DNA of 64,000 nucleotides from Bacteroidia bacterium (GTDB taxonomy: Bacteria; Bacteroidota; Bacteroidia; Bacteroidales; JAPLDU01), in the NCBI GenBank assembly GCA_026391255.1, contig JAPLDU010000018.1, forward strand, positions 1 to 64,000, in the 5' to 3' direction. Position 1 is the stretch's first letter. The number at the start of each line of letters is the position of its first letter. The notes under the pieces were generated by a model, which did no database searches, had not been told where the DNA came from, and saw nothing but the letters and a program-made list of their open reading frames with translations. Of this stretch, positions 1 to 29,244 are shown piece after piece. Position numbers and translations under genes: made by a program.

Positions 1-3000
1 TTAATTCCAGTTATTTTGCTGCTGCAACCGGCATATTAAATGTAAGTACATCCTCCTGTAATGCGGGAACATGGATAGGCGGAACGAGTACCGACTGGAA
101 TACAGCATCCAACTGGTGTGGCAGTGCAGTACCGACTTCTGCGACAAATGTAATTATTCCTGCAGGAGGTAATCAACCGGTGATCGGTGCATCAGCCGTT
201 TGTAATAATCTTACCATTAATACAGGTGCTTCGCTGACCGTAAGCGGTTCAAATATTTTGACCATTAGTGGCAACTTTTCGAACAGTGGAAGTTTTACAG
301 CTAATAACAGCACGGTAATTTACAATGCTGCAGGAGCCCAGTCATGTGCCGGTGTTGCATATTACCATCTGCATTATCAGGTACCGGAATAAAAACACTG
401 ACATCAGTAAGCACAGTCAACGGTAGTTTGTTTATGAGCGGATCGGCAACAGCAACTACAGCTACCACATTGACAGTGGGTGTTAATGTTAGTCTGAGCG
501 GAACTTCCAACCTGACTACGGGAGCAATCTTATATATTACGGGAACTCTTTCAATAGGTGATGGTACAACCTTCACTGCAGCCGGCTACGATTTAACGGT
601 GGCAGGTGCCACGAATATTGGAACAGGAACAAGCGGCACATTAACCATTTCATCTGCAGCAGGTTTAAAATTATTTACAGGCCTTGTTACCATTGCTGCC
701 GGAGGGACATGGAACAATTCCGGAAATTCTGCAGTCGAATTCAGGGGTGGTATTACGAACAATTCTACTTTTACCGCAGGTTCCGGAGTTTATTTATTTA
801 GCACAAACGATCAGGCACTTAACGGAACATGTTCGATTCCAAGCATGACTGTTTCAGGTATAACTCTGATTAATAATAATACGTTGACAGTTAATACTGC
901 TCTCAGTGGTACAGGTGGTTTGACGCAGGCCTCTAACGCGACCCTTAATCTCGGCGGAACATCAGGCATAAGTACATTAACAACAGGTAATGGCGTTAAT
1001 ACAATAAATTATACCGGTACCGGCCAGACGCTGAAAGTAACTGCTTATTATCACCTCATATTGAGTGGCGGAGCAGAAACCTTTGGTGCAATTACAACAA
1101 TTAACGGCAATCTGATACTAAGCGGTACTGCAACAGCAACGACCGGGGCAAACCTGACTGTTAGCGGTAACCTTTCAGTTGGAGACGGTACAACGTTAAC
1201 TATTGGTGCTTATACTTTCAGTGTCAGTGGAACAACAACCATTGGCACAGGAACAAGCGGAACGCTCGCGATATCTTCGGCAACGGGTACCAAGACCTTT
1301 ACAGGCGCAGTAACGATCAATAGCGGTGGTGCGATTACAGAAAGTGCGGCTGCCCAGCTTGCATTTGTTTCGGATGTTACTATAAATGGTACATTGACGG
1401 AGAATGGGACTGCAATTGTTGGTTTTAGCGGAAATTTAAGTAACAACAATTCATACAATGCCAGTTCTGGTATTCATACTTTTTCAGGTACAGGCAATAC
1501 AATCGCAGGAAACTTGACTATTCCTTCCGTGACAATCAGCGGAACCATCCAGAATACTGGGACCCTCGCAATTTCCTCAGCTCTGGATGGATCAGGTGTA
1601 TTTACCAATGGAGCCACCGGTATTTTAAATATTAATTTCACGGGGGCAATGAATCTCACCAATCTGGTTGCAAGTACTTCCGGAAACACAGTTAATTACG
1701 GATTTGCCGGTACCCAGACAGTAAAACCGGTAACTTATAATGACCTCATATTATCCGGATCCGGAGCGAAGTCTTTTTCCAATGCAACCACCATCAATGG
1801 AGACTTGTCAATGTCTGGTAATGTTTCAGCCAATCTGGGAACTTACACATCTTCATCCAACACATTAACGCTCAGTGGATATGGCCAACCTTCCGGTTCA
1901 TGGGGAGGCACCGGTTCGGGCGCAACATATATTAACCCGGCTTATTTTGCATCAGCAACCGGAATATTAAATGTGAGTTCATCAACCTGTATAGCAGGAA
2001 CATGGATCGGAGGAACCAGTACCAGTTGGAATACTGCATCCAACTGGTGTGGCAATGCAGTACCAACCTCTTCAACTAATGTTATAATTCCTGCAGGAGG
2101 AAATCAACCTGTGATCGGTGTATCAGCAGTTTGTAACAATATTACCATCAATACAGGTGCATCGCTGACCATCAGTGGTTCCAATACATTATCCATCAGT
2201 GGTAACTTCACAAATAACGGAAGTTTCACACCAAATTCAGGTACGGTAATTTATAATGCCGCCGGAGCCCAGACATGTGCCGTGTTAATATACAACAATC
2301 TTACCGTATCAAACTCCGGAATAAAGTCATTTGCCACTTCACCCACGATAGATGGCATACTATCAATAGAAGGGACTGCAACAATCGATATAGCAACGGG
2401 TGTGGTAACCTATGGTGCAAACGCGACACTTCAGTACAACACATCAACTGCAAGGACAACTTCGCCTGAAGAATGGATAAGCACTTTTACGGCGACAGGC
2501 GGGGTTATCATTGCCAACACCGGAACCATCACCATGGATGCTGCTAAAGTTTTTAACAGTTCCGCTTCACTCACCATTAATAATGGCGCAACATTAGCCA
2601 TGTCGACTTATTTACTTACCCTGAATGGTGATTTTATCAATAACGGCGGGTCAACAAGTGGCTCAGGTGGGGTGACAATTTCAGGTATGATCTCTCAGAA
2701 TATTGGCAGCTTTACGAATACTGGCCTGGTATCCATGACTAAAACAGGAGGCATGGCAACGTTTCAGGGCAATGTGAACGGAGGCGGGCTCACTATCAAT
2801 GGTTCGGGAGGAACCCTGAATCTTGGCAACGGACTTACACATTCGTTTACCGGGGCTGTGACACTTACTGCAGGCTCATTGATCGGAGGGTCCAGCATAC
2901 TCAATGAAAATATGGTAAGTGTTACAGCATGGAGTGGTACCGGGGCATTATTCACTGCCGGAACAGGAACAGTAAATTTCGGAGCAGCAGGTGCCCAAAC

Positions 3001-6000
3001 GATCTCTGCGACAACAACCACATTTAATAACCTCACCCTGTCCGGTTCAGGTGTTAAGACCTTTAGCAATGCCATTACTGACGGCGGAATTTTATCCATT
3101 GAAGGAACTGCAACAGCTAGCTTTACAGGAGTTCTGACATACGGATCCGGAGCAACTCTGCAGTACAAAACTACTGATGCACATACCGCAGGGGCAGAAT
3201 GGTCAAGCCCATTTACAGCGACCGGTGGCGTCATCATAGCAAATACAGCCGGATCAGTGATACTTAATGGCGCCAAAGTGCTAAATGCTTCTGTTCCCCT
3301 AACGATCAACAGTGGTGCAGTTTTTGAGACATCGACTTTTTTACTGACCTTAAATGGTGATCTTATCAATAACGGAGGAACCATAAGTGGTTCGGGTGGA
3401 GTGACAATTACAGGAACAGCAAACCAAAGCATAGGCAGTTTTTCGAACACTGGTACAGTGACCTGCTCCAAAAGCGGTGGTATCGCCACATTGACAGGTA
3501 CAATGAATGCAGGATTGCTGACAAACAGCGCTGCAGGAGGGACATTGAATCTTGGAACCGGGTTGACACATTCAGTAACAGGTGCATGGACAAGAACAGA
3601 CGGTACCATTGATTGTAACACGAGCACATTGAATATCGGTGGTTCGGTATCCAATACTGCGGGAACGTTTATTGCAGGTACAGGAACCGTTAACTACAAT
3701 GGCACGGTTGCTCAGACTATCGCTACTGTTAACTATAATAATTTAGGTTTCTCCGGTGTACATACCTCAAATAGTATCACAATTAACGGGGCAGTTGGAA
3801 TTGCAGGAACCCTGACAAATACTGCATCGTTCTCTTCAGGTAACTTTGTACTTGCAGGAAGTACTGTAACGTTTAACGGAACAGGGAACCAGACTGTTTT
3901 ATCGTTAAATAATGTAACATATCCTAACCTGACCATCAACAAAATAAGCGGTACAGCCATCCTCGGCAGTGCTGTAACAACCACCAGTTTTACTAACACA
4001 GCCGGAACCTTTGATGCAGGTACCTATTTGCTGACGGCTGCAACACCGACACTTACTGCCGGGAAACTAAGAGTAGGAGCAACGACCTGGGCGGCTAATT
4101 ATTCGTTTACCCCGGTACCTCCCTCCGGATTTACCATCGAATATTATAATGACAATCCGAATATCAATGGGGCAATCACCTATCAGAATCTGATTTTCAG
4201 CGGAACAGGAACAGCGGGTGCAAGCACTTCACTGATTATCCAGGGTGATTTGCTGAACACAGGAGGTGGCAACTTAAATTTTGGTGCCAACAATGTGACT
4301 CTGAGTGGTGCAATTACCACAAACAACATTGCAGGATTTATTACAACAGGAACGATTAGTTGCACAAAGACAAGCGGAACGGCAACATTCACCGGCGTTG
4401 TCACATCAGGTCCGTTTTCAATTAGTAACACAGGAGGAACACTTAGTTTAGGCAATTATACTTCATCAGCAACCACACTAACCTTGGGAGTATATGGCCA
4501 GCCTGCAGGTTCCTGGGGTGGACTGACATCAGGTGCAACATTTATCAATACAAGTTATTTTGCGTCGGCAACAGGAATTATTAATATCAGTTCAGGATCA
4601 TGTTCGGCCGGAACATGGATTGGAGGAACAAGTACAGATTGGAATACAGCCTCTAACTGGTGTACAAATGCGGTACCTCTTTCTTCGACTAATGTTGTGA
4701 TTCCTATGGGTGGCAATCAGCCGGTAATAGGTGCCTCGGCTGTATGTAACGACCTGATTATCGGTACAGGTGCATCACTGATCATAAATGGTACAAATAC
4801 ATTGACCATCAGCGGTAGCTGGACGAACAATGGAAGTTTTACCGCAAACAACACTAACTGTTTCAAATTCAGGAATAAGAACTTTTGCAACCACACCCAC
4901 CGTAAATGGCGTACTGTCCATAGAAGGAACTGCGACAATAAATGTAACATCCGGAGTAGTTACGTACGGCGCTAATGCGACACTTCAGTACAATACATCA
5001 GTGGCAAGGACAGCATCGTCAGAAGAATGGATAAGCACATTTGCAGCAACAGGAGGGATCATCATTACCAATACAGGAGCCATCAACATGGATGCTGTCA
5101 AAGTATTTAACAGCACAGCTCCGCTTACCATCAATAATGGTTCGGCATTAACTTTGTCAACTTATTTACTTACTCTGAACGGTGATCTTATCAATAATGG
5201 CGGAACTATTAGTGGATCAGGAGGGGTTACGCTGGCAGGAACATCAACACAAAGTATAGGTAGTTTTACAACAACGGGTGCTCTTTCTGTCTCAAAAACT
5301 TCAGGAACAGCTACATTAATGGGAAATGTAAATGCAGCCTCACTGGCATTTAATACTTCCACCAACGGTTCAACTATTCTTGCCCTGAATTCGTCAGGTG
5401 TCACACTGACAATATCCGGAGGTATCACTATCAACCAGCCCAGTGCCAATAATACCTCAAATACCCTTCAGGTTGGAGCAGGTAATGTAACATGTTCAAC
5501 AATAAGCCTTTTAGGAACAACTGGTACTGCCTGTAATTCAAACCTGAATATTTCTACCGGAACAGTTACTGTATCAGGAGATATCACTTCCTCAGGGGTT
5601 TGTTCACGTATCATTTTTTCTGACGCGGGGAATTTTATGGGTGGATCTGCAGGTACATTCACTGCATCAACGAGTACTGTTGTTTTCAACCTTACCGGTG
5701 CACAGACAGTTGCCCCATTTGCCTATACATTTAATAATGTTACGCTTACCGGTTCCGGAGCAAAGACAACCACCAACGCTACCATCAATGGTATTCTCTC
5801 GATGGAAGGAACTGCTACAACAACCGGAATAGTCCCCACTTATGGATCAAACGCAACTTTGCAATATAAGGGATCCGCTGCTCAAACCACAGGCATAGAG
5901 TTTCCTGCAACGTGGAGTGGTGCGGGAGGCGTTATTATTGCCAATACAAGTGGCTATGCCGTTACACTTGGAGCTGCCAAGGTTGTCAATGCGCCGCTTA

Positions 6001-9000
6001 TCATTAATAATGGTGCAATTTTTAATACGAGCGCAGCCAATAACTATGCACTTACATTCGGAGACGACTTTATCAATAATGGAACATTTACTGCTAACGG
6101 ATCTGCAATAACTATTGCCAATACAAAAATAGTACAAAGTATTGCGGGATTTACCACAACCGGTACTGTTCAAATGACAAAAACTTCAGGTACAGCGACT
6201 TTACAGGGTGCAACTTCGGGCGGAGTTCTTACATTAAACGGTATTAGTGGAACACTTAATCTTGGTGTCGGGTTTACACACAATGTTAACGGAATCATAT
6301 TTACCAATGGCATATTGAATCTTGGGACATGTACAATTAATATTGCGGGGGCAGTGGCGCTTACGACCGGGACATTAAATCTAAGTTCCGGTACAATGAA
6401 TCTCACCGGCAATTTTACAGGTACCGGAACCCTTATCGGTGGTACAGGAACCATCAATTTCAATGGAACGTCGGCTCAGACAGCAGTGGGAAATACCGGT
6501 TATTATATAGTTAAGATAAATAATGCTGTCGGGGTTACCCTCACCGGCGCTGCCACATTGTATACACTCACAATAGGTGATGTAACATCAGGCAGTATAT
6601 TTAATGACGGAGGATTCCAGCTTACCAGTACAGGAAACTTTAATCTTACATCCGGAATTTTCAACCTTGGTACAACCACCACAGCAACGACATTCCCTGC
6701 ATTTACAGTAATAAATTATGGAACAGGTTCCACAGTTGCTTTTATTTCGGGGGTTGCTCAGACCGTTGCAGCAGCTACATATCCAAACCTTTCTTTTTCA
6801 GGCGCCGGAACAAAAACTACGGCTACCGGTACATTAACTGCGGTTGGTAACTGGATCATAAGTGGTGGTGTAGCTAACCTGGCCGTCAATAACAGCAACA
6901 TAACAGTTACAGGTAATATCACATTTACAAGTGGAATCACATCCGGAACAGGAACAATTATGCTGGGAGGAAACTGGACGAACACCGGGGGTACATTTAC
7001 AGTGGGGACCGGCACTGTAACATTTAACGGAACAGCTGCCGAGGTAATCACAGGGACACCCGTTACCCAGACTTTCTATAACGTGATCATATATAAAACT
7101 GCAGGCACTTTATTAAGTGTAACCGGAAGCACCACCACGCTTACGGTTAATAAGCTCACGGAAACTTCAGGTGATTTTAATGCACCTTTAACCTTGAATA
7201 TCAGCGGAACACTTACCCTGACTTCAGGTACTTTTACTGCAGGACAAAATATTTATATCGGAGGCGATTGGACGAATAACGGGGGAATATTTAACTACGG
7301 ATTCGGTACCGTAACATTTAACGGAACTTTATCACAGGCAATAAACGGCATAGCAACCAGCCAGTCATTTGATAACGTTATTATTGCTAAGACTGCAGGA
7401 ACAATGCTGAGTGTTAGCGGCAACACCAGCACATTATCTGTGTACAACCTTACCCAAACTACAGGAAACTTTACAGCCCCGGCAACTTTGAGAATAAACG
7501 GGAATGTTGTACTGACTTCAGGAATTTTTTCTGCCGGAACATCTGTGATTTGTTTAGGTAACTGGACAAATAACGGAACTACAGTGAACCCGGGTACCAG
7601 TACGGTCACATTTAATGGTACAGGTTCCCAGACAATAAACGGAACAGCAACAAGCCAGATTTTTTATAATTTGATTCTGAATAAAAATTCCGGAACATTC
7701 ATCTGCACAAGCGGAAGTACCATATCAGTTACGATGAATGACCTGACCCTGATAAAAGGTACTTTTCAGGTGAATGATGCCACAAATGTCAAACGTACAA
7801 TAAATGTAAACGGAGATGTACTGGTTGAAAGTAACGGAAATATTACCACCGGAACCGGCAATCCAAATACAGGTGGCTACACTCTCCCTTCCAACTTACC
7901 TCCGGTAGGACAATACCATTCCATTTTTCATGAACTGATTATAAGAGGTAATTTTACCAATTACGGCAATGTGAATTTTTCTAACCTGACGGCTCCCAAC
8001 TACGGGGCATTTACTACCACAGGCTCCGTTACTGTAAGGTTGATCGGGCCAACTGATAATACCATCGATTTGAATGGCCCCACTAATTTCTATAATCTTG
8101 TGATTGACAAGGGTACAGATAAGACATTTATTGTGACGCTAATTTCATCAGATATTGCCTACTTCGCCCTTTATGGTCCGACATTATTAGGCCGTGTAGA
8201 AGCATCTCCTTTTACTTCTGATAACCCCGAAATCAGGAAATCTCTCTGGATTAAAAATGGCACCTTAAAATTTACAGGCGAACTGATGATACCCACTCTT
8301 ACTGAAAGTGATAATAATACCGGGAATGGCGATTATGCCATTGGTTCAAACTCAGAGATGTGGATAGATGGACCAGATGTGACAGTATATACTACAGCCA
8401 CCGACAATACAGGTTTTCCCCAGGCTCCTGTGGGTTCATCAGGCGTACTAGCGACATCAGGTTACCAGGCGCTTTCAGTTTATGGAACATTCAGGATTAC
8501 CGAAGGTTTTTTTGGTACACGTAACAGTGCCGGTTTTATTTTCTGGGATACACCTAACTCAACTGCAATAGTGCTGTTTGAGGGAGGATTAACGAATACC
8601 AGTATTTTTCGTGAAGGTGAATCGGATGGAAAAGCGGCTTATATTCAAACAGGAGGAACTGTTATTATCCGCGGGAATGAAACCGAACCGGGAGAAGTGA
8701 CCGATTATCCGGTATTTAATATTCCTAATCCGGCTACTTCATTTATCATGTCTGGCGGAGTAATGATCATAGAAGATAAGGACAACGGGACCGCTGATGG
8801 GAACGGGTTTTATGTAAATTCAAGTCCTGAGAATTACTCTGTGACCGGTGGTACTGTCATTTTTCAGACAAATCCTGTCAATACCCCATCTATTGATATT
8901 AATTCCACGGCTAATTTCTGGGACCTTGAAATTAATAATCTGACCACCACAGGTAATCCTGTAATGAACCTGATGAATAACCTTAAAGTTTCAAATGATC

Positions 9001-12000
9001 TGACAATCTATTCAATTGCCACACTTTATTCAGGAACAGGAAATTATAATGTTACGGTTGGTGGTAATTTTTATATTAATGCTGGCGGAACTTATTCCCC
9101 TGGAACAAATACTACGATTTTCACGGGAACCGAAAGTGATTATTTATGGAATGACGGCACCATAACAAACGGGTTATATAACCTGCAGATTAATAAAACA
9201 TCAGGATCAGTGATACTGGGCGGATCCGTTACCTCATTTACTATCAGAAACGACCTGACAATCGGAAATGCTTCATTAGCGGACGGAGGAAAAGTGATTT
9301 ATGTAAACGGAAATATTTACAATAACGGAACTATTTTAGGTCCGGGCAGGATTTCATTAAATAATTCGACTACCAGCCAAACGATTACCGGCGATGGTTC
9401 CGGAAGTTTTCAGAATATCGAATTAAATAATACGTCCGGGTCAAGCGGATCAGCCACTGTTTATTGTACTGCTGATATCCAGGTAACTGGTAACCTTTCA
9501 CTTACTAATGACCGGATATTCGACATTTCAGATAACCTGTTGTCGCTTACATCAACGGCTGCTTTTTTGGGAACATTCAGTAATCAACGTTTTATCCGTA
9601 CTGCAGGCTATCCGACGAATAAAGGTGTAATGAGAATTTTTAGTGATACGATAGCTTTTACCTATCCTCTGGGTACAGGCACAAATTATACCCCTGTTAC
9701 TCTTCATGTAAACAGTGCACCTGTCGGATATGGCAGTGTGGCTGTAATACCTGTTCCGGCCAAACATCCGCTGGCTACAAATACAACATGCCTGGCATAC
9801 TATTGGAAACTTATTGACTCAGATTTTTCGGGAATTGTACCCGGATCAATCCAGATGATATTCAATTATGGAAACCTGCCTGATAATACTTCATATGTTC
9901 CGGGGAAATATTCTGCATTAGCCTGGTCATATATTAATGATGTCACGCTGGTTGATGAATCTGCAAAAGAGATCAGGTTCAATACGGCCAGCAGTATATC
10001 CGGTGATTATACCGCCGGAATTCCTGCTGCATTTGCAGCAATTACTTCCTATTACAGCCGGACAAACGGTGCATGGGATACACCTGCCACCTGGTCGAAC
10101 ACAGGTTTTGGAGGACCAGCAGCCACAACCATCCCGGGAGCTTCCAATATTGTTTATATTGGAGATGGGGCAACTTATAACCATACTGTGACGGTTCCTA
10201 ACGGAACTGCATTGTGCGGTAATCTCACACTTTCAAACGGTTCGGTACTGGATTTGGGAACTTCTACGGGTAATAATTTCGGAACTGTTATTTCGGGTAG
10301 TAACGGAACATTGCGTATATCGGCCAATACTGGTACAGCAGTTTTCCCTGCCGGAGATTTTTCTGATTTCCTCGGATCAGGCGGAGGAATAGTTGAATAT
10401 TATACAACCGGATCACAGGATTTTACTATTCCGGCCGTCACCGCTTCGCCCAGTTCGATGAATATTGCGGGTTATCATTATTTAAAGCTTATTCCGGCAT
10501 CGGGCAGGTCAATTACCATGCCCAATTCTAACCTTGAAATATATAGTGATATGACAGTTCAGGGAGCTTCATCCACTGCCCTGGCAAGGTTGAACTCGTC
10601 AAATGCCCGGAGCCTGACCATTGATAATAACCTGTATGTGAACGGTGGAAATCTCCTTTTTCAAAATGGAACTGTGCAAACATTGATAATAAATAATGAT
10701 CTGACAATTTCTTCCGGAGCGATATTCAATGTGGCGAATTCAGGTATTGCAGTAAACAATTCGCTAAGTATTGGTGGTGATCTTACCAATAACGGTACAT
10801 TCGATATGAGCGTTGGAAGCAGTCGTTTATGTAACGTAACATTTACCGGCAGTAACAATGCATTCATTTCCGGAACCGGATCAACTACTGACTTTTATTC
10901 TATCACACTTGATAAAGGTAACTCTGCAACTAACATTTTGAATATTACTTCATCCGCATTCACATTTTCAAACAATACCACTCCCCTTATTCTGATCAAT
11001 GGAACATTCAGACTTACCAGTTCATTATCAGTAACTGTTTCTGCTGTCTCAATCAGCATTCCTGCCTCAACCTGTCTTTCAGCTAATGGAGGAACAATTG
11101 TAATTGCTACCACAGCAAGTGACAACGCAGATGTTGATCTTTCCGGCAAGATAGAAATTATTTCAGGAGCGGTCACTGTCGGGAATTCAGCCAATAATAA
11201 CAACAACGATATTGTATACGCAGGAGCAGGTTCTCCCACTTTAGATTTACAGGGAGGTACTTTGTTTGTTAACGGACAGATAAGGCGTAGTACCGATGAT
11301 GGAATGGGCTCTCTTATTTATAAACAGTCCGGTAACAGTGCAGTGACTATCAACGGCAGAAATTCTCAGTCCTCACGTGCAAAATTAGAGATACTGAATC
11401 TCGGTAGTGAGTTTGATATGTCAGGTACCAGTACACTTACAATTGTCAGAGGTGCAGGAGTAACATTTTACGATCTGTATATTTCTCCTACAAATTCCAC
11501 CGTTACCGGGGGAACCATTATTTTTGGAAATGCTTCAACAGAAAATACCAACCAGGCTAATATTTTTACTATTGGCACTCTGGTACCACTTAATAATCTG
11601 ACTATTGATGGTACAACATATCCAAAAACCGTAACTCTGTCAAATCATTTTCTTTATCTTTATGGAAATCTGACAATTAATTCAACTTCTATTTTTAAAG
11701 CAAATAATTTTGATGTTACGATTAACGGGAATTTTACCAACCTGAATACGGATGCAAATACAGGAATCAGCACCGGTGGTTACCAGGCCGGATCGCTAAT
11801 GCAAACCACGACTTTCAGTGGTTCTTCATCTAATCAGAGTATTACAGGAACTTCCGGCAATCTGACAAATTTTGCAAACCTGGTGATTGATAATACATTT
11901 TCAGCAGGGACGGTTACCCTTCAGACCAACAGTAATCTTCGAGCAAACAGCAGTCTCACCTTGTCCCAGGGAATACTTGCTGATGGGGGTAATGTAATTA

Positions 12001-15000
12001 CTGTAATTGGAAATATTGAAAATTCTGCGACTCATTCCGGTTCTGGACATATTACATTAGCTGGTTCGGGAATTCAGGTACTTTCAGGAGATGGAACCGG
12101 GAAATTCAGCAATATGTATCTCAACAGCAATTATGATGTTCAGATGACTGCGTCAATGGAATATACGGGAACGCTGACATTTAATTCCAAAATGCTGTAT
12201 ATTGGAGGAAACCTGCTCAATCTTAGCAGTACATCAAGTGGTTCTACTGCAGGATATTCCTCCACAAGTTATATTATTTGTGATGGTTTGACTGATGATG
12301 CCGGAGTGCAAAAATCATATCCTGCATCAGCTCTTGATTATACATTTCCAATTGGGGTTGCAGGTAAATATACACCTGCCAGGATAAATGTAACGGCAAA
12401 TTCCGCAGCAGGTACTGCAAAAGTTGTACCGGTCAATACGAAGCACCCGGCAACCACCAACCCGTTTGATAAGCAACTGTTATATTATTGGACTGTTGTT
12501 AAAACCGGATTTAGCGGGTTGCAGGTAAATCATGTCTATACATATGTACCATCTGATGTGACAGGTATTGAAAATTATTATGATGCAGCACGTTTCTACA
12601 ATAATTCATGGGATTACGGTCCTTCAACCTCAGTAAACCCGGCAACTCACACTGCAAATTTCACTAGTGTGAATTATATTGATGGTGATTTTACGGCTGG
12701 TGAGTCTTCTGAATTCAATGCGATTTATACTTTTTATAGCCGCAATGCCACATCCGGAGGAAACTGGAATGATGTTAACACCTGGTCAACCACTTCACAC
12801 AGTGGTGATCCTGCCACTACATATCCAAACGGACAACCTGTGGATATTGCTGCAGGGCATACAGTACATGCAAACGGAACAGGTCGCTATGCTTACTCTG
12901 TTGTCCTGAATGGCACACTCGATCTGGCAAGTTACATCAGTCATAGTTTAGGGAATGTATCAGGCACTGGAACAATAAAGATGAATCCGTTTACGTCAGG
13001 TGATTTCATCTTTCCATCGGGTAATTTTAGTATTTTCAATAATACCGGGGGTGGAACAGTCGAACTTAACAATTCATCAGGAACGGCGGCAATTCCATAT
13101 GTTTTGACTTATAACAATTTATCACTTACAGGGGCGGGCACAAAGCAAATGATCGAGGCCAATATCCGGGTCAAAGGAGACCTGACTAATGGAAATGGAA
13201 GTACATTTATAACCTCGGATTATTTCACGCTGATCCTTGAAGGAAACCTGATTGATAATGGCACTTTTGTCCAAAATAACGGAACTACTGAGTTTAATGG
13301 TAACACTACCATGAGCGGTGTTTCCGGAACTACATTTCACGATATTGTAATCAATCCTGATATGATATTAACCGGAAAATCCTCCGCAAGCTTTAGTATC
13401 ACTGGTAACTGGAACAATAATGGAATATTTAATCATAACTCTGGAACAGTCATATTTAATGGTAATACTACAATCTCTGGTTCAGAAATCACCACCTTCA
13501 ACAATATCAGCATCACCCAGGGAAGTATTCTCACCGGTTATTTCGGAAATATTATCATGACTGGTAACTGGGTCAATAATGGGATATTTGAACACAACTA
13601 TTTGGGAACGATGAATATATTCCTTAATTTTATTGATAACGGCACTTTTACACACAATCTGGGTACGGTTGTATTTAATGGATACACACAAACCATAGGC
13701 GGATCGGCACATTCAGATTTTAATAACATGGTAATAGACGATTTTAGCAATACTACCATCAGTACAGCAGGACAAACATTAATGGGAATTTTGCTTTGTA
13801 ACGGCACTCTGAATGCAAATTCAAATCTGACATTACTTTCCGCATCTGACCAGACTGCTTTGATTGATGGATCAGGAACCGGCCAGGTCTATGGTGATGT
13901 CACCATGCAGCGTTACCTGCCGTCTGGATTTGGTTATAAATACTGCAGTTCTCCATTTCAGGACGCAATAGTTAACGAATTTTCCGATGAAATGAACCTG
14001 TATGCTGATTTTCCGACCTTTTACCGTTATGATGAAAACAGGCCATATACGGGGTGGGTGGTATATACTAATCCATCAAATCCATTGGTGCCAATGGCAG
14101 GTTACGCAGTAAATTTCGGACCATCCGATTCGCCTTTAACTATTGATATTATTGGTATAGTCAATAACGGAGCCCTTCAATCTCCGGCATTATTCAATCA
14201 TAATAGAACCTATACCATGGGATTTAATCTCATTGGAAATCCTTACCCTTCGCCTGTTGATTGGAATGCTTCACAAGGGTGGATACGGCAAAATATCGAT
14301 AATGCATTGTACTATTTTAATGCTGGTACTACCAATCAATATACCGGGTCATATAGTTCTTATATCAATGGTGTTTCAAGTGATGGTATTGCCAACAATA
14401 TTATACCTGCCATGCAGGGATTTTTCGTTCATGTTTCCAATGGTAATTTTCCGGTATCAGCGACACTAATATTTAATAATACGGTCAGAATTAACAATTT
14501 GTCCCCTCATTATCACAAATCTGCAAAAGATGATACAAGACCATTATTGCGGTTCTCGGCAGCTTACACTGATTACAGCAATCTTACAGATCCTTTGGTT
14601 GTTTACTTCAATGATTCCGCCACCCTTGGTTTTGACAACAAACTGGATGCACTTAAATTAATGAATACAGACAATAAATTGCCAAATGTATTTACAGTAA
14701 TCTCAGATACCTGCTTCCTATCAATCAACTCAATACCAATTCCTGCTGACACATTTACCGTTATACCGGTTGGTTTAAAAACTATTTATGACGGGGAAAT
14801 TATTTTTAATGCACAGGATTTTAATAATATTCCGGATGATATGTATATTTACTTATCTGATAATCAGACAAAACAATTTCACAGAATTCAAAAAAACCAG
14901 TCAGTTATTAAAAATATTATTGCAGGTACAGACCTTCATCGTTTTGCACTGATATTCAGTTTACATGAACTTAATTACCGGCCTGTTTCGGGTGAATTAT

Positions 15001-15230
15001 TTTATGCATATGAAAGCGGAGGTAAAATATTTGTTTATCTTAATCTGGAACAGGGTGAAAGAGGGCTACTATCCATTTATAATCTGTTGGGCCAGATCGT
15101 GTATAAAGAGGAGCTGACCGGCAATGGCTACCATGAAATACAACCTGGATTTATTTCCGGTATATATATTGTCAGCCTTACTTCAGGTAAAAATGTATAT
15201 GCAAGGAAAGTGCTCATAAATAATCAATGA
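1..15230 (+). CDS. Giant modular repeat-rich surface/adhesin-like protein with T9SS type-A-like C-terminal sorting domain; 5' end outside window; reading frame broken at ~371 and ~4850
   Basis: Frame 0 is open from the window start (NSSYFAAATGILNVS...), continues in ORF 344..4975 and then ORF 4830..15230. Thr/Ser/Asn/Gly-rich beta-repeat composition. Repeated module GTWIGGTSTxWNTASNWCxNAVP. C-terminus LLSIYNLLGQIVYKEELTGNGYHEIQPGFISGIYIVSLTSGKNVYARKVLI is typical of a T9SS CTD. Confidence 0.85.
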
Positions 15231-15240
15231 TTGATATAAA

Positions 15241-15753
15241 GTGAATTTGTTAAATGTTTTAAAAGTCATAAGGCGGATACTCGTATTCAGCACATTTTTA
15301 TTATTTTATATTGGAGTAAAAGCGCAGGAAATGCCGCCACGACCCTTGGCTGTATATGTTAATCCGGCACTGGGTCTGGTTTTTGGGCAATTTACACATG
15401 GCCCTTCAGGTGGAACAATCATTATTAGTCCATCTGGTTCAAGATCAGCTACAGGAAGCGTGATACCACTCAACGGGGAATCATATTCCACTGCTATTTT
15501 TGAAATAGAAGCAAACCCCGGAACAATTGTCTCTATGGTTTTTGGACCTGATGCGATACTTACAGGCAGTAATGGTGGTTCCATGACGCTTCAGATTGGT
15601 GGATCATATCCCTCATCACCTCTGGTTACCAATGCCGTACCTCCATTGCGTACCCTGGTGTATGTTGGAGGTACTCTGCTGGTTGGAGGCCCGTTGGCAA
15701 ACCCGCCGGGAAGTTATTACGGTACCTTTTATGTCACTTTTTTCCAGGAATGA
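15241..15753 (+). CDS. Small secreted DUF4402-like (pilin-like) protein, 170 aa
   Basis: GTG start 10 nt after the adhesin stop; N-terminal signal peptide ending near VKAQ; pattern FGQFTHGPSGGTIIISPSGSRSATGSVIPL...YSTAIFEIEANPG resembles DUF4402. Confidence 0.7.
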   Translation: MNLLNVLKVIRRILVFSTFLLFYIGVKAQEMPPRPLAVYVNPALGLVFGQFTHGPSGGTIIISPSGSRSATGSVIPLNGESYSTAIFEIEANPGTIVSMVFGPDAILTGSNGGSMTLQIGGSYPSSPLVTNAVPPLRTLVYVGGTLLVGGPLANPPGSYYGTFYVTFFQE

Positions 15754-18455
15754 CCAGTGAGCTATCTTCAATTGACCGGTTTGTAATGGTTAGCTATAGA
15801 AAAAATAGTACCGCAGAGTGCAATCATAATTACTTCAACCCGAATTGTTTTCTTTCACTGATTATTACCGGGATTCTTTCCATCTCGCTGGTTGGGAAAG
15901 CCTATTCCCAGGATTTGAACAACTTTGATGAAATCTCAGTATACCTGAATGTTCAGGGTGTCGGTGGGCTTGATGTATCTGCCATTACCAATAGTCATGA
16001 TCTGTTTCTGTCAGTGAATGAGGTATTTGATTTCCTGAAGATCAGGAATGTGGCAAGTCAGGGTTACGATACATTATCCGGTTTTTTTATCAACCAGGAA
16101 TCAGAATACCTGATTGACAGGATCAATCATGAGATTACCTACCAGAATACCGTATATGACCTGAAACCGGAGGATATCATGCATACAGAGACAGGCCTGT
16201 ACCTGAAACTAAACTACTTTGGTGAAATTTTCGGTCTGGAATGTACCTTTAATTTCAGAAGCCTGTCAGTGAACCTCAAAACCAAACTTGAACTGCCCGT
16301 GATCAGGGAGATGAAAATGAAACAATTGCGGAATAATATCAGCAGGTTAAAAGGAGAAATAAAAGCTGATACGGTGATTCACAATAACTATCCACTCTTT
16401 AAGCTGGGAACTGCCGATTGGTCGGTGAATGCAACCCAGGAAATAAATAAAAGGAAAGATGCTCGTCTGGGATTGAACCTGGGATCCATTCTCCTGGGTG
16501 GAGAAACAAATATGTCTGTAAATTACCAGACTGGTTACTCGATAAGCGAGAGACAACTGAATTATAACTGGCATTATGTCAATAATGAAAATACTGCATT
16601 AAGGCAGGTATTTGCCGGAAAAATAAGTGCGAGGGCAATATCTACAATATATGCCCCGGTTCTTGGATTACAGTTTACCAACACACCCACCACCTACCGC
16701 AGGTCATTTGGAACTTATACCCTAAGCGATTACACCGACCCGGGTTGGTTAGTGGAATTGTATGTGAATAATGTGCTGGTGGATTATATTAAAGCTGATG
16801 CATTAGGATTTTATTCTTTTGAAATACCGCTTGTATACGGGAATACCACCATTAAACTCAGGTTCTACGGGCCTTGGGGTGAAGAACGTTCTAGTGAACA
16901 AAACATTTCAATACCATTTGAATTCCTGCCTGTCCATGAATTTGAATATTCGGTCAACGGTGGTATGGTAGAAGACGGGCACAACAGCATATATTCCCAG
17001 ACAAATATCAACTATGGACTGAACCACCGGATAACAATGGGAGGGGGCATGGAGTATCTTTCATCAGTTAGTTCAGGGAAATTCATGCCTTACCTGGGTT
17101 CTTCGGTAAGGCTTACATCAAATATCCTGCTTAACGGTCAGTATGTGAACAAGGTGCTATCAAAAGCGATCATGACGTACCATCTGCCATCCAGTGCCCA
17201 GTTAGAATTCGATTATATCCGGTATGCAGAACACCAGACCGCCATAAATAATAATATGCTGGAAGAACGTAAGGTGATTATATCATTTCCCCTGAAAGTA
17301 AAGGAATTTTTAATATCCTCAAGACTGAAACTAGGCCAGGCTTTTGTTCCGGGGACCAAATATGAAAATGCGGAATTATTACTTTCGGGCCTTGTGGCAG
17401 GAGTCAGCACAAATCTGACAACATCGGCCGTGTTTCTTGAACAGGTATCGCCCAATGTCAACAGCAATCTGTTTCTGGGATTCAGGCTCCCCAAAGGTGT
17501 ACTAATGACAACCCAGACGCAGTACGACTTCCAGCAAAATCAATTTATGTCCTTGAAGCTGTCATTTGAAAAACATTTTATTGGAAATGGGTTTATGAAT
17601 GTTAGTTATGAAAAATTTTTAAGTACCAATGCTCAAACCATTGAATTTGGTTTAAGATATGATTTTAATTTTGCAGAGACTGATTTCTCTGTCAGGAGTG
17701 GTACAAATTCCACATTATTTGTTGAATATGCTAAGGGAAGCCTTTTAAATGAAGGCCGGAAAGGGCATATTAAACTCAGCAACAGGAGCAGTGTTGGCAA
17801 GGGAGGACTCATCATTGTTCCATTCTTTGATCTGAACAACAACGGACAAAGGGATCCCGGTGAATCTAAAGTGGCTGGCCTTACCATGCATATGAACGGA
17901 GGACGTACAGAACTCCGGCCAAATGATACCACGATTCTCGTGAATGATTTAGAGCCATATACAAATTACTTCATTGAGATTGATCCGGCAAGTCTGAATA
18001 ATATAGCATGGCATATCAGGAAACCTGTCATAAGTATTTCTGTTGATCCTAATTGCTTCAGATTGCTTGAAATACCGGTGAATATTGTAGGAGAAGTTTC
18101 AGGTACAGTATACTTGAACGACGAAAACGGGAAAAAGGGACAGGAACGCATCATTGTAGGAATCTATGATGAAAAAGGCCAGACACTTGCGAAAGTGATG
18201 ACTGAATCAGACGGATTCTTCAGTTATCTGGGCCTGGCACCCGGATCATATCTTGCCAGAATTGATTCTGCTCAATTACAGAAATTACAAATGACTGCCA
18301 TTCCGGCTTCATCTAAATTCAGTATTAAAATGTCAATGGATGGAGACGTGGTTGATAATCTGGAATTTATTATTGAACATATCACCAAAACGCCGGATCA
18401 CGGAACTAAACCAGATGAAAAAGAACCGGTTGAAAAAGAAAAGGAAGAAAAATAA
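15750..18455 (+). CDS. Usher-like outer membrane protein (alternative chaperone-usher type) with SdrD/carboxypeptidase-like C-terminal domains
   Basis: ATGA overlap with the preceding CDS. Long beta-barrel-like ORF with an usher-like segment (DYTDPGWLVELYVNNVLVDYIKADALGFYSFEIPLVYGNTTIKLRFYGPWGEERSSEQ). C-terminal FFDLNNNGQRDPGESKVAGLTMHMNG and GTVYLNDENGKKGQERIIVGIYDEKGQTLAKVMTESDGFFSYLGLAPGSY repeats. A downstream ATG (MVSYRK) is an alternative start. Confidence 0.65.
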   Translation: MTSELSSIDRFVMVSYRKNSTAECNHNYFNPNCFLSLIITGILSISLVGKAYSQDLNNFDEISVYLNVQGVGGLDVSAITNSHDLFLSVNEVFDFLKIRNVASQGYDTLSGFFINQESEYLIDRINHEITYQNTVYDLKPEDIMHTETGLYLKLNYFGEIFGLECTFNFRSLSVNLKTKLELPVIREMKMKQLRNNISRLKGEIKADTVIHNNYPLFKLGTADWSVNATQEINKRKDARLGLNLGSILLGGETNMSVNYQTGYSISERQLNYNWHYVNNENTALRQVFAGKISARAISTIYAPVLGLQFTNTPTTYRRSFGTYTLSDYTDPGWLVELYVNNVLVDYIKADALGFYSFEIPLVYGNTTIKLRFYGPWGEERSSEQNISIPFEFLPVHEFEYSVNGGMVEDGHNSIYSQTNINYGLNHRITMGGGMEYLSSVSSGKFMPYLGSSVRLTSNILLNGQYVNKVLSKAIMTYHLPSSAQLEFDYIRYAEHQTAINNNMLEERKVIISFPLKVKEFLISSRLKLGQAFVPGTKYENAELLLSGLVAGVSTNLTTSAVFLEQVSPNVNSNLFLGFRLPKGVLMTTQTQYDFQQNQFMSLKLSFEKHFIGNGFMNVSYEKFLSTNAQTIEFGLRYDFNFAETDFSVRSGTNSTLFVEYAKGSLLNEGRKGHIKLSNRSSVGKGGLIIVPFFDLNNNGQRDPGESKVAGLTMHMNGGRTELRPNDTTILVNDLEPYTNYFIEIDPASLNNIAWHIRKPVISISVDPNCFRLLEIPVNIVGEVSGTVYLNDENGKKGQERIIVGIYDEKGQTLAKVMTESDGFFSYLGLAPGSYLARIDSAQLQKLQMTAIPASSKFSIKMSMDGDVVDNLEFIIEHITKTPDHGTKPDEKEPVEKEKEEK

Positions 18456-18502: not shown

Positions 18503-19081
18503 CTAATCTCCGCTGGCCTGGGTCAAAGTAAGATAAACAGTCACAACAATACCTTCGTTGGCTTCAATCAGACCAAAATTGACTGACGGATTCACCAGTG
18601 ACCAGGTATAAACCATTTGATAACCGTCATTAGGACCGGTTCCTGTATAACAGCTGCGGATATCAGAAATGATATTTTGATCAACTGCAGAAAGTACAAC
18701 CGGTGAACTGACCGGTGTACCCAGATTGCCTCCGCTGTTGGTACGTGTGGCCGGTAATGGTTGTAATGTCAGCTTTGTCCCGCGTGGCACAGCACCTACA
18801 ATTTTTGCCTTGATATCACGGTGCGAACCACTGGGAACCACTGATGTAACTTTCACCCAAAGGTTGTCATTTGTAGCACTGACAGTAATGGATGATCCTG
18901 CAGTTGAGGTGGTAAGTGTCATGGATACAGGAGCATTGTTGGTCGAAATCAGTGAAACCTGAGGTATATTAAGCACCAAAGCATCGCCGGCAGTGATCTG
19001 GTCAGGTATAATCTGGGCCTGCAATACACCGGTCATAAAACTTGCTCCGATAAAGCTTAATATTACTGCTGATATTTTCAA
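18503..19081 (-). CDS. Small secreted pilin-like protein, paralogue of 19289..19840
   Basis: Signal peptide; shared motif GGNLGTPVS-LS-Q-II-I-SCYTGTG-G-Q-YxW with the neighbouring minus-strand ORF. Confidence 0.6.
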   Translation of the reverse strand: MKISAVILSFIGASFMTGVLQAQIIPDQITAGDALVLNIPQVSLISTNNAPVSMTLTTSTAGSSITVSATNDNLWVKVTSVVPSGSHRDIKAKIVGAVPRGTKLTLQPLPATRTNSGGNLGTPVSSPVVLSAVDQNIISDIRSCYTGTGPNDGYQMVYTWSLVNPSVNFGLIEANEGIVVTVYLTLTQASGD

Positions 19082-19288
19082 CTTGATTTATTCCTGGTTA
19101 ATACGCAATATACTATTTCCAGTATAGAATATTTTCAGTGTACAAACATATTTGATTAGTTACAATGAGAACTAAGCAAATTGCTGAATTAATGGTTAAG
19201 AATGCTGATTTATTTTATCGGAATACTGAAGTAAGCTATTCCGTTGAATTCAAATATGAACTCCAGAGGGTATTTCCTGCGATAATAT

Positions 19289-19840
19289 TTATTCAGACGA
19301 TAAAATCGTATAAGTAAGTGCAATTACATTGCCACTATCCGATTCATTATTGCTATAATTCTTATCAACGATCCAGGAATAAGTAAGCTGATGTCCTTTG
19401 AGCAGTCCGGTTCCTGTATAGCAACTTCCTATGTTAGTGATGATATCCTGAGGTGATTCAGAAAGGGTAATCTCGCTTACAGGTGTTCCAAGGTTACCTG
19501 CTCCATCCCCAACATAATTTCCTGTCATGAGCTTTATACTTGTCGATTCAGGCAGTTGGCCAGAGCTGATATTTACTGTAATTTTATTGGAAGTACCACT
19601 GTTAACAACAGAGGAATAATTTATCCAGCTGTTTTTTGATGATTCAGGAGTAATGACAACGCCTACCTGGGATGGGGATGAAAATGATATTGTATTGTCG
19701 GTTTCAATAGCAAGGATTGCAACAGGAGGAATTGAAAAATTCAGATTGCTGACTGCAGTATTGCTCTGGGCAACACTATTGTTACCGTGAAGCATAATTA
19801 CCGCCACAAAAACAATCAGAAGATTCTTACTTATATTCAC
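19289..19840 (-). CDS. Small secreted pilin-like protein, paralogue of 18503..19081
   Basis: Signal peptide (MNISKNLLIVFVAVIMLHGNNSVAQ); GAGNLGTPVSEITLSESPQDIITNIGSCYTGTGLLKGHQLTYSW motif shared with paralogue. Confidence 0.6.
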   Translation of the reverse strand: MNISKNLLIVFVAVIMLHGNNSVAQSNTAVSNLNFSIPPVAILAIETDNTISFSSPSQVGVVITPESSKNSWINYSSVVNSGTSNKITVNISSGQLPESTSIKLMTGNYVGDGAGNLGTPVSEITLSESPQDIITNIGSCYTGTGLLKGHQLTYSWIVDKNYSNNESDSGNVIALTYTILSSE

Positions 19841-20220
19841 CGATTTATTATTTTAAAATCGGTGCGAACGTAATGATACTGAAGCAGAATGATAAAATTA
19901 TTTGACCAAGCTCAGTTTTTTATCCACGAACTGCATAATTAGTTACACTAATAAATTTAAGTGAATTTTCAGAGTCTGTGCATTTTGTTCATATTTATGA
20001 ATTCAGAATCATTATTTACTCACAATTATTTTTTAAGGTGTTCGTGAGATCGCTTCGCTAAGTTAACGATAAATGATTTAAGATGTGACTGGTAACCTGA
20101 AATCTAAAACTTAACCAAAAAATGGAAAGAATTGGAAATAACAATTTCCTGACTCCAGGGCCGGTGAAATTGTACTGTTATTGTTTTATCCCAGGCATGC
20201 GATACTAACAGCGGAAATGT

Positions 20221-20288
20221 AAATTGCCCGGAGGGCATAAATTTCAATAGAAAAATGAACCAATAAATCATTAATTGTCCGTAGGACA
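20221..20288. repeat. Two short REP-like hairpins: TGCCC-GGA-GGGCA and TGTCC-GTA-GGACA
   Basis: Perfect 5-bp stems with 3-nt loops (20225-20237 and 20276-20288) in non-coding DNA. Confidence 0.6.
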
Positions 20289-20735
20289 TTAATTAACAAC
20301 ACGATGGCAAATACCTGTTCACATATTTGATAATTGTTAATCTCCTGACGGGGAATCCATTCTGTTAGCTATCTCCATGCTATTGAAATTGATCTCCTCT
20401 GGAAAAGGTAATTTTATTCATGAGACTAAATTTTCAGGAACAAAGTGAACTGAAAATTTAAAGTTGAACCATCCCGACGAAGGCGGAGGGTAAATACCCC
20501 GCTGCTCTGCGGCAGAACTTGGGTTGAGATGTTCTGGTACTTTAAAGCAATATCGCTCAATTGACAATAATCATAAGCAATTTACATCAATCCCAAATTC
20601 TGGAACATACCCAAAAAGATTAATAGTTGCGGGTAATTCTTTTTCTTTAATCATTACATGTGATTTTAATAATAGGGCACTGAATAACCTGAAAAGGTAC
20701 TGGCAAAAAGAAAAAAATAAAAAGCGGAGACAGAA

Positions 20736-21380
20736 CTACAGAGATGCAATTCCCTTTTTCAGTGCATATTTTATCAGGTCGGTATTGGTATTCAAGCCTA
20801 ATTTTACAAGGATATTTTGTTTATGTGTACCGACTGTTTTTATACTGATGAATAAGATTTCACCAATTTCACGGGTACTTTTCCCCTCTGCAATCAATTT
20901 TAGTATTTCAAGTTCCCGTTCCGTAAGATTCGGGGTATTATCGTGAATGGATTCTTCTTTGTGAAGATAGTCGTGGATCAATCCTTCCGTAATTTCATTT
21001 TCCAGATAAATCTTGCCACTATTTACTGAATTAACAGCTTCAATCAGTTGATTATATGTGCAATTTTTAAACAGGTACCCCGAAGCACCTGCTTCAAGCA
21101 TACCTTTAATATATTGTCTGTCTGAATGCATTGAAAGTGCGATGATTTTTATATCCGGCAATTCTTTTAACAATAATTTGGTAGCCTCCACACCGTTGAG
21201 AACAGGCATTCCAATATCCATAATGACAACATCAGGCTTAAATTCTTTCGATTTGGTGATCGCATCATGGCCATTTTCGGCTTCAGCAACAATTTCTATA
21301 TCATTCGAATCCAACAGAAGGTTTACCAAACCTTCCCTGAATAATCTATGATCATCGACAATAATTACTTTGATTGGCAT
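20736..21380 (-). CDS. NarL/FixJ-family response regulator (REC + LuxR HTH)
   Basis: [82 protein letters not shown]. Confidence 0.93.
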   Translation of the reverse strand: [214 protein letters not shown]

Positions 21381-21384
21381 ATTA

Positions 21385-22947
21385 TTAATTTTCTAAGGGG
21401 ATTCTCACAATTGCTTTCGTTCCTTTATTCTTCTTGGATTCAAACTGCAACAAACCCTGAATGGAATCTAATCTTTCGCTGATATTAAACAAACCAAAAC
21501 CACCCTGGTCGGAAAACTTTATGTTTGATTTATATTTAAATCCTTTTCCATTATCTGTCACTGATACGCACAAGTAATACAGGTCTTTATGTATCTCCAC
21601 TTCAATAATTCCGGCTCCGGAATGTTTAATCGAATTAACAATCAACTCATTGGCAATTCTATATATTAAAATTTTCAGATCGTTGCTTAAATAACGGGTG
21701 TCAGTGGTGCATTTGAGCTTGGTTTCAATCATATGTTTTTCTTCCAGTATTTCGAGGCGCCACCTGATGGCAGGTAACAATCCCAGCTCGAATAATATGG
21801 GCGGACTGAGCTCATAAATCAGGGTTCTTGCCTCTTTGATGGCAGTATTAATCAGGTCGACCGATTCTCTGATCGTTTTACCTGTTTTGGGATGGAGTTC
21901 TGAGTTCAGTAATGAAGTCAGCTTAATATGAACAAGAGAAAGGGTCTGGCTCATACCATCGTGTAGGTACTCCGCAATCCGCCGTCTTTCTTTTTCTTCC
22001 ACATCGGTCAGATCAGCATTCAGTTTTTTTAGTTTTTTCTGGTATTCTTTTATTTCTTCCATTCTTTCCTGAAGATCAGTCTCTGCCTTTACACGTTCAG
22101 TAATATCCTGACATACTCCCCTGTAACTGATCAACTCATTATTTTCATTGAAAACAGGGAACCCACTTACTGACATCCATATTTTTTTACCATTACGATG
22201 CCGGAATATCAGCTTTTCATCTTTAAAGTTAATAGCATTTTTTTTGTCAAGATTCAGTAACGATGATAATCGTTTTGTTTTCCTGAAATATGGAATGATG
22301 ACATTGAACATTTTACCGATGATTTCATCAGGCGTTATTCCCAGAATTTTTTCTAACGAAGAACTAATATATGTGATGTGGCCATCTGAATTGACCTCCC
22401 ATAAGAATTCGAGGGCATATCCTGAAATCTGTAAGAATCTGTCTTCTGCCTGATGACTTTCAATAATTTGATTTCTAATATAATTTTCAAGTTCCTGATT
22501 TTGTTTTCTGAGTTTATCTTCAGCGTTTTTAATTCTCAGCATTACATTTACCAAAGCAATGAACTCAAATTTACTAAATGGTTTTGAAATAAAAGCATCA
22601 GCCCCCGTCTCCAGACCTTTTGCCCTGACTTCAGGATTATTCCCCAATGTCGACAACATGATCACAGGAATCAGGCTGGTGGTTTCGACAGATTTAATTT
22701 TCTGACAAGTCTCAAAACCATCCAGTCCGGACATTAAAATATCAAGGATAATGATTTCCGGGTTATCCGATATTGCCAGTTCAAAGCCTTCCTCTCCGGA
22801 ATGTGCCAGTAGCACAACATAATCCGGATGGCTTTTGTGAAGTATATTCTGAATCAGCTTAAGAGTAATTTCTGAATCATCAATAACCAAAATCTTCTTC
22901 ACAGAATTCATTATCTGATCTGATAAAAAATGATTTTGCAAAGGCAA
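21385..22947 (-). CDS. Hybrid sensor histidine kinase (REC-PAS-HisKA_3-HATPase)
   Basis: KKILVIDDSEITLKLIQNILH; PAS region ITYISSSLEKILGITPDEIIGK; ERRRIAEYLHDGMSQTLSLVHIKL; NELIVNSIKHSGAG...DNGKGF. Likely start is an internal Met (MNSVKK, ~22911). Confidence 0.9.
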   Translation of the reverse strand: MPLQNHFLSDQIMNSVKKILVIDDSEITLKLIQNILHKSHPDYVVLLAHSGEEGFELAISDNPEIIILDILMSGLDGFETCQKIKSVETTSLIPVIMLSTLGNNPEVRAKGLETGADAFISKPFSKFEFIALVNVMLRIKNAEDKLRKQNQELENYIRNQIIESHQAEDRFLQISGYALEFLWEVNSDGHITYISSSLEKILGITPDEIIGKMFNVIIPYFRKTKRLSSLLNLDKKNAINFKDEKLIFRHRNGKKIWMSVSGFPVFNENNELISYRGVCQDITERVKAETDLQERMEEIKEYQKKLKKLNADLTDVEEKERRRIAEYLHDGMSQTLSLVHIKLTSLLNSELHPKTGKTIRESVDLINTAIKEARTLIYELSPPILFELGLLPAIRWRLEILEEKHMIETKLKCTTDTRYLSNDLKILIYRIANELIVNSIKHSGAGIIEVEIHKDLYYLCVSVTDNGKGFKYKSNIKFSDQGGFGLFNISERLDSIQGLLQFESKKNKGTKAIVRIPLEN

Positions 22948-28224: not shown

Positions 28225-29244
28225 ATGGATACGGAAAATAAATTATTGAAAAAGGCTTCCCTGCAAAAGCTGATCGAAAAGCTGAATGCCGACGGGAAAA
28301 AAATACTTGCCCCTGTGATTAAAGGAAAACGCGTGGAATTTGGTTTAATCACATCTTCTGATCAAATGGCAGATGATTACATCGTTACTAACCAATCTGT
28401 CAAATCAGTCGCTTTTCCGAAATTTGAAAAACTCTTCAGTTATGAAGTGACTAAAGAAGGAATTACCCAGGCAGATACAGGGTACAGTACATTTCCCGAA
28501 TTTGTGATTCTTGGTGCAAGACCTTGCGATGCGAATGCCCTCGGATCAATTGGCGCTATCTTCAACTGGGATTACCACGATAAACTTTACTTTGACAGGC
28601 TTGAAAAGACCACAATGATCAGTACGAGTTGCAGCAAATGCGATGATTATTGTTTCTGCACATCTGCCGGCGGTCATCCGGGCAGTACCAAAGGCAGCGA
28701 CATTCAACTGACCAGGTTGGAAACAGGGGATTATTTTGCAGAAATTCTGACTGAAAAAGGGAAAAAACTAACATCTGTTTCTCCTGATCTTTTTGAAACT
28801 GCACCTTCTGTTGATAAATCAAAATACCTGGCCGAAGTCCCTGTAAAATTCAAGGTAGACGAGGCCGTCGCAAAGGTAAAAACGGTATTTGAGAACGAAT
28901 TATGGCTTGATCAGTCACTCAGGTGCATTGGCTGCGGCGCCTGCGCTTTCGTATGTCCTACCTGTGCTTGTTTTGACATTCAGGACGAGACAAAAGGGAA
29001 GAATGGTATCAGGCTGCGCTGCTGGGATTCATGTGGACTCTCACTCTTCACTCTGCATACTTCAGGGCATAATCCCAGGGAAGTGCAAAGCCAGCGCTGG
29101 AGACAAAGGATCATGCATAAATTTGCTTATATGCCCGAACGACAGAATGTCACGGGTTGCGTGGGTTGCGGGCGTTGTTCACGTGCCTGCCCGGTCGATA
29201 TGAATATTATGGAACATTTGATAAATATTGTGGAGGTAAAATAA
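28225..29244 (+). CDS. FloxB-like 4Fe-4S dicluster protein (anaerobic sulfite reductase A-like)
   Basis: CIGCGACAFVCPTCACFDIQDE, CVGCGRCSRACPVDMNIMEHL; EFVILGARPCDANALGSI. Confidence 0.78.
   Translation: MDTENKLLKKASLQKLIEKLNADGKKILAPVIKGKRVEFGLITSSDQMADDYIVTNQSVKSVAFPKFEKLFSYEVTKEGITQADTGYSTFPEFVILGARPCDANALGSIGAIFNWDYHDKLYFDRLEKTTMISTSCSKCDDYCFCTSAGGHPGSTKGSDIQLTRLETGDYFAEILTEKGKKLTSVSPDLFETAPSVDKSKYLAEVPVKFKVDEAVAKVKTVFENELWLDQSLRCIGCGACAFVCPTCACFDIQDETKGKNGIRLRCWDSCGLSLFTLHTSGHNPREVQSQRWRQRIMHKFAYMPERQNVTGCVGCGRCSRACPVDMNIMEHLINIVEVK

Follow-up and report, generated by a model that had tools for sequence, protein, structure and literature searches.

Chaperone-usher systems have been reported from Proteobacteria, Cyanobacteria and Deinococcus-Thermus (PMC4654587). 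In Bacteroidota, the type V (FimA/Mfa1) fimbriae are made from lipoprotein precursors that are matured by proteases, and no chaperone or usher genes have been described in P. gingivalis (PMC5789003). The assembly of Bacteroidetes fimbriae has been called largely unknown. Our search of the open literature (subscription papers lay outside it) returned no account of a chaperone-usher system in Bacteroidota and no paper mentioning DUF4402. Here we analyzed a window of 64,000 nucleotides, bases 1-64000 of contig C108 (JAPLDU010000018.1) of a Bacteroidia bacterium, which begins with the end of an operon encoding a giant adhesin, a DUF4402 protein and an usher-like protein.

Our analysis indicates that window positions 15241-18455, together with a chaperone gene and further DUF4402 genes on another contig (C96), very probably constitute a divergent, Bacteroidota-type chaperone-usher system that would be co-expressed with an adhesin of the type IX secretion system (T9SS). 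The basis is computed: the folds of usher and chaperone, conservation of the operon and the adhesin's T9SS tail. Archaic (sigma) systems, such as the Csu pili of Acinetobacter, resemble it in their PapD-like chaperone (CsuC is among the best structural matches), usher and small pilins, as well as in broad phylogenetic spread. However, the phyla reported for them exclude Bacteroidota, and the window-type system differs in an usher missed by PF00577, in its DUF4402 subunits, in a T9SS adhesin gene within the operon and in the frequent SPOR domain at the C-terminus of relatives' ushers. The alternative (alpha) CFA/I and ECP systems include CfaA, which ranks first among the chaperone's structural matches, whereas their subunits and gene order differ. 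Type V fimbriae share the phylum, the formation of surface fibers and assembly by strand exchange, and differ in the maturation and gene content described above. SprB/RemA-type T9SS adhesins are likewise giant repetitive proteins with a type A sorting tail, whereas the window adhesin is encoded inside a chaperone-usher operon.

Folds and genes of the system

The sequence-only reading had described a tight operon of an adhesin with a T9SS-type C-terminus, a DUF4402-like gene and an usher-like gene, and all three identities held. The spacing is exact: the adhesin stop at 15230 is followed, after 10 nucleotides, by the GTG of the DUF4402 gene at 15241, whose stop codon (15751-15753) overlaps the ATG of the usher gene at 15750. 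The features are listed in Table 1.

Table 1. Positions of the features in the window and, where stated, on contig C96 (ORF, open reading frame; pLDDT, predicted local distance difference test).
Feature	Position	Strand	Evidence
Giant repetitive adhesin, C-terminal part	1..15230	+	ORFs 3-392, 344-4975, 4830-15230
Adhesin N-terminus with signal peptide	C96:2-3739	-	Repeats common to the C96 and window parts
Adhesin T9SS type A C-terminal sorting domain	15030..15221	+	TIGR04183, 36.2 bits, cut-off 23
DUF4402 subunit P0004, usher-adjacent class (Du), short N-terminus before LxFG	15241..15753	+	PF14352; alignment A5; lengths of the N-termini
Divergent outer-membrane usher of 901 aa, unmatched by PF00577	15750..18455	+	AlphaFold2 model and Foldseek
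Usher N-terminal periplasmic domain, residues about 58-180	15921..16289	+	AlphaFold2 secondary structure; full-length alignment to FimD 3rfz
Usher beta-barrel, residues about 217-667	16398..17750	+	DSSP of model: 6 strands, plug insertion, 18 strands (24)
Usher plug domain, residues about 319-389	16704..16916	+	Model, local pLDDT 57-69; position as in PapC
Usher C-terminal beta-sandwich domains, residues about 674-877	17769..18380	+	Model; SdrD_B/CarboxypepD_reg-like profile matches
Pilin-like secreted protein, second cluster	18503..19081	-	59% identical to L163:11574-12161 (intact cluster, G083)
Second pilin-like protein, second cluster	19289..19840	-	57% identical to L163:12390-12950
Response regulator heading second cluster	20736..21380	-	67% identical to L163:13168-13812
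Sensor histidine kinase with receiver and PAS-like regions, adjoining the response regulator	21385..22947	-	ORF and translation; kinase-like ORF end at the same place in L163

The third gene was confirmed as an usher by its predicted fold, though Pfam is silent: at its gathering cut-off PF00577 matched neither the window protein nor anything else in the genome. Scans with Pfam and NCBIfam returned C-terminal SdrD_B-like matches only, and phmmer and profile searches of the PDB by sequence missed the ushers. The AlphaFold2 model (pLDDT 78, built on 46 homologs) was compared with the PDB using Foldseek; the 18 best matches were all FimD/PapC structures, with E-values down to 2.3e-24, and the first unrelated barrel appeared at 4.4e-6. 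A structure prediction that might have revealed a porin or another non-usher barrel thus gave an usher fold instead, comprising a 24-strand barrel, a plug and periplasmic domains at both ends. We read the strand count from the model ourselves, and the plug region, a six-stranded insertion after barrel strand 6, is of low local confidence. PapC has 24 strands with its plug between beta6 and beta7 (PMC4356140).

The window usher therefore resembles classical FimD/PapC ushers (PF00577) in its full-length fold, barrel and plug position, whereas identity in the structural alignments is only about 11% and the C-terminal region is SdrD_B/carboxypeptidase-regulatory-like. A C-terminal SPOR (peptidoglycan-binding) domain, which the window usher lacks, is present in 33 of 50 long relatives (e.g., at loci L057, L059, L063 and L109), and an OmpA domain in one of the 20 relatives of alignment A1.

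The chaperone lies across a contig break. That the window holds no chaperone gene, as first noted from its letters, is correct; the pathway proposed on that ground, chaperone-less or chaperone-remote, was not borne out. The first base of the window is also the first of C108, so that the adhesin has no 5' end there, and the chaperone is missing from the window because of this break. Searching the rest of the genome revealed a single PapD-like chaperone gene, at C96:3820-4701 (match C96:3826-4656, 411 bits), just upstream of the adhesin N-terminus; about 80 nucleotides separate it from this adhesin part, which runs off the start of C96. The operons of relatives contain a protein of 270-300 amino acids that belongs to the same family, and in most of them the chaperone is encoded in the same operon.

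An AlphaFold2 model of a chaperone ortholog (pLDDT 83) has the two-domain PapD-like architecture, with CfaA, CsuC, YadV, PapD and other fimbrial chaperones as best PDB matches (best E about 1e-9, probability 1.00). At the sequence level, PapD_N matched 7 of 14 family members weakly, at E up to 0.1 (best 6.5e-5). The chaperone of the window genome was not matched by PF00345 (PapD_N), and one relative, with 21.9 bits, fell short of the gathering cut-off (23). Sequence profile searches of the PDB recovered no chaperones.

Two independent lines place C96 next to C108, namely shared adhesin repeats and synteny. The adhesin fragment on C96 and the window share repeats with 90.5% nucleotide identity over 370 nucleotides at the window start and 77% over 1114 nucleotides, while protein matches on other contigs are short and at most 69% identical. 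In the relative genome G083 (locus L163), a response regulator and two pilin-like genes, orthologous to those at window positions 19289 and 18503, are followed contiguously by orthologs of the C96 genes at 8066, 8811, 9891 and 12601 and of GldM; the six ortholog pairs compared are 51-68% identical. An exact overlap of the C96 and C108 ends was sought and none was found. On these sequence comparisons C96 is the neighbor of C108, and with the break bridged the chaperone gene would lie at one locus with the usher gene.

The DUF4402 protein of the window matched PF14352 with 67.1 bits (cut-off 25.2), and two more DUF4402 genes are located at C96:5423-5950 and C96:6470-7042, so that small secreted pilin-like subunits are encoded alongside the usher. 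These proteins are likely the subunits of the usher; we infer a putative incomplete immunoglobulin fold and donor-strand exchange. In usher-adjacent DUF4402 proteins, LxFG is preceded by a median of 17 residues and the C-terminus is mostly FxQE/Q; the others have a median of 23 residues there and mostly aromatic-Asn endings (xYN/xFN). The proteins whose genes precede the chaperone gene combine an alternating N-terminal extension with an aromatic-Asn C-terminus, as would be expected of shaft pilins. Because a subunit without a donor-strand extension could only occupy the tip, we propose, with moderate confidence, the usher-adjacent protein as a candidate fiber tip or initiator subunit. No FimA/Mfa1-type match was found in Pfam or NCBIfam, and the signal peptides, judged by eye, are ordinary, unlike the lipobox signal peptides of type V precursors.

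The T9SS tail of the adhesin was recognized when its last 169 amino acids were scanned and fell below threshold in the Pfam scan of the whole protein. The genome also encodes T9SS machinery (SprA and two GldM genes), and the adhesin has the features of a T9SS cargo protein. Its reading frame is split over three ORFs, with breaks at about 370 and 4840. Since both breaks fall within long repeats that are 73-90% identical, an assembly indel is the likely cause. Frames are also broken in a hydrogenase/reductase-like gene (29157-30075) and a nuoH-like gene (32881-33615), which, together with the adhesin, suggests scattered assembly indels.

Conservation and distribution in Bacteroidota

To survey the gene neighborhood, we searched one-per-species genomes for usher relatives and found 314 places, of which 80 loci were kept. 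The co-operon proved to be conserved: a DUF4402 gene lies directly 5' of the usher gene in 73 of the 80 independent loci, and the arrangement is therefore not due to chance. The commonest complete gene order is DUF4402(s), chaperone, adhesin, DUF4402, usher. A chaperone was found inside 33 of the 80 fetched loci; this count is a minimum, since the 10 kb flank is often filled entirely by adhesin genes. Nine of ten adhesin tails tested exceeded the T9SS cut-off.

Usher relatives occur in 23 of 147 genomes of the same order. Across 395 Bacteroidota genomes, 77 contained an usher (61 full-length and 16 divergent), and 56 of the 57 chaperone-positive genomes also had an usher (Fisher p about 4e-49, uncorrected for phylogeny). 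Among the 80 full or divergent usher genes of this set, 55 had a chaperone within 10 kb, mostly at about 200 nucleotides.

A Bacteroidales subgroup (L071, L072, L073, L084, L087, L089, L090, L096 and L103) has the DUF4402-usher pair or the usher alone, and neither an adhesin nor a chaperone adjoins the usher. The chaperone of this subgroup may be encoded elsewhere or be too divergent.

Proposed assembly and alternative explanations

Based on the predicted structures and gene order, DUF4402 subunits would enter the periplasm via Sec and be captured by the PapD-like chaperone, which would supply a donor strand completing their fold. The usher would receive the chaperone-subunit complexes and polymerize the subunits by donor-strand exchange, threading the fiber through its plugged 24-strand barrel, with the usher-adjacent DUF4402 protein starting the fiber as the tip. 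The giant adhesin, gene-coupled to tip and usher, would be exported by the T9SS, separately from the fiber as we infer from its sequence, and act at the same cell surface.

Several observations weigh against a chaperone-usher system. Homology of the usher to PF00577 is barely detectable by sequence, with one of 20 relatives matching at E 0.044. Profile comparisons with hhalign, for which the E. coli templates were thin, gave no significant result for the usher (FimD/EcpC) and a weak one for the chaperone (FimC/EcpB/EcpE). Searching the PDB with a DUF4402 profile returned no pilin. The chaperone profile matched nothing in 21 of the 61 genomes with a full-length usher. By its predicted structures and gene arrangement, the locus nevertheless qualifies as a chaperone-usher system, one that fails the sequence thresholds of PF00577 and PF00345.

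If the silence of the Pfam usher model is given full weight, the 901-amino-acid protein could be a generic outer-membrane barrel (a porin, an LptD-like protein or an assembly factor) in an operon that merely groups surface proteins, and Occ porins and LptD do appear among the lower-ranked Foldseek matches. The usher matches, however, are better by 18 orders of magnitude in E-value. They cover the N-terminal, plug and C-terminal domains, and a PapD-like chaperone co-occurs, which makes such a barrel very improbable. Even less credence is due to an usher that would export DUF4402 subunits with no periplasmic chaperone involved. The window holds no chaperone gene, and at about 9 of the 80 loci (e.g., L071-L073, L084 and L087) the DUF4402-usher pair lacks a chaperone among its non-adhesin neighbors. 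In this genome, however, the idea is already refuted by the chaperone gene adjoining the adhesin N-terminus and by the G083 synteny that makes C96 and C108 neighbors, and across the phylum the proximity of chaperone and usher genes reported above speaks against it. What stands of the sequence-only reading is the usher, the DUF4402 subunits, the T9SS tail and the conserved co-operon. The locus appears to represent not a new chaperone-free pathway but an apparently undescribed Bacteroidota version of the chaperone-usher pathway.

A composite organelle, in which the T9SS-exported adhesin docks on the DUF4402 tip, would extend this chaperone-usher system rather than exclude it. In most loci the adhesin gene lies directly 5' of the DUF4402 gene that adjoins the usher, the stop of the one commonly overlapping the start of the other (-3 or -7), and the T9SS tail is conserved. 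However, we found no domain common to adhesin and pilin, in seven loci the chaperone and DUF4402 genes are not separated by an adhesin gene, the adhesin follows the usher in L046 and L050, and operon coupling may reflect co-regulation only; we consider such docking possible though rather unlikely. Only tentatively, then, can two outer-membrane secretion systems be imagined to build one structure, with SPOR-tailed ushers in relatives tying the assembly site to denuded peptidoglycan.

The flanking cluster and implications

A second assembly-like cluster, comprising window positions 18503-22947 and C96 (L034) 8066-15017, surrounds the first. It consists of a two-component system, four pilin-like proteins with a common CYTGTG/CFTGSG-type motif, a 263-amino-acid chaperone-like protein, a 902-amino-acid protein that has no family and is predicted to form an outer-membrane barrel, and a GldM paralog. 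This cluster is rare in the order, and it is intact and contiguous in G083; the chaperone-usher cluster therefore sits between its two halves, on the opposite strand. P0006 of the second cluster was considered as an usher relative and not counted, its similarity to the usher being confined to the C-terminal domains. Both GldM/PorM genes of the genome (L034:13410-15017 and C79:20670-22283) score above the family cut-off. The C96 copy is part of the second cluster; in L040, a GldM-like ORF lies 3' of the usher.

Apparently undescribed features are a Bacteroidota branch of the pathway, DUF4402 proteins as subunits, the presence of a T9SS adhesin gene in the operon and, in many ushers, a SPOR domain at the C-terminus. 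To our knowledge, neither T9SS adhesins in the operon nor SPOR tails have been reported for known ushers. The usher-chaperone-DUF4402 system is found in about one fifth of the sampled Bacteroidota genomes and is missed by standard family models. It would extend the chaperone-usher pathway to another large phylum and would give DUF4402 a function, and its cultured carriers, among them Chitinophaga, Niastella and Daejeonella, are organisms in which the system can be tested.
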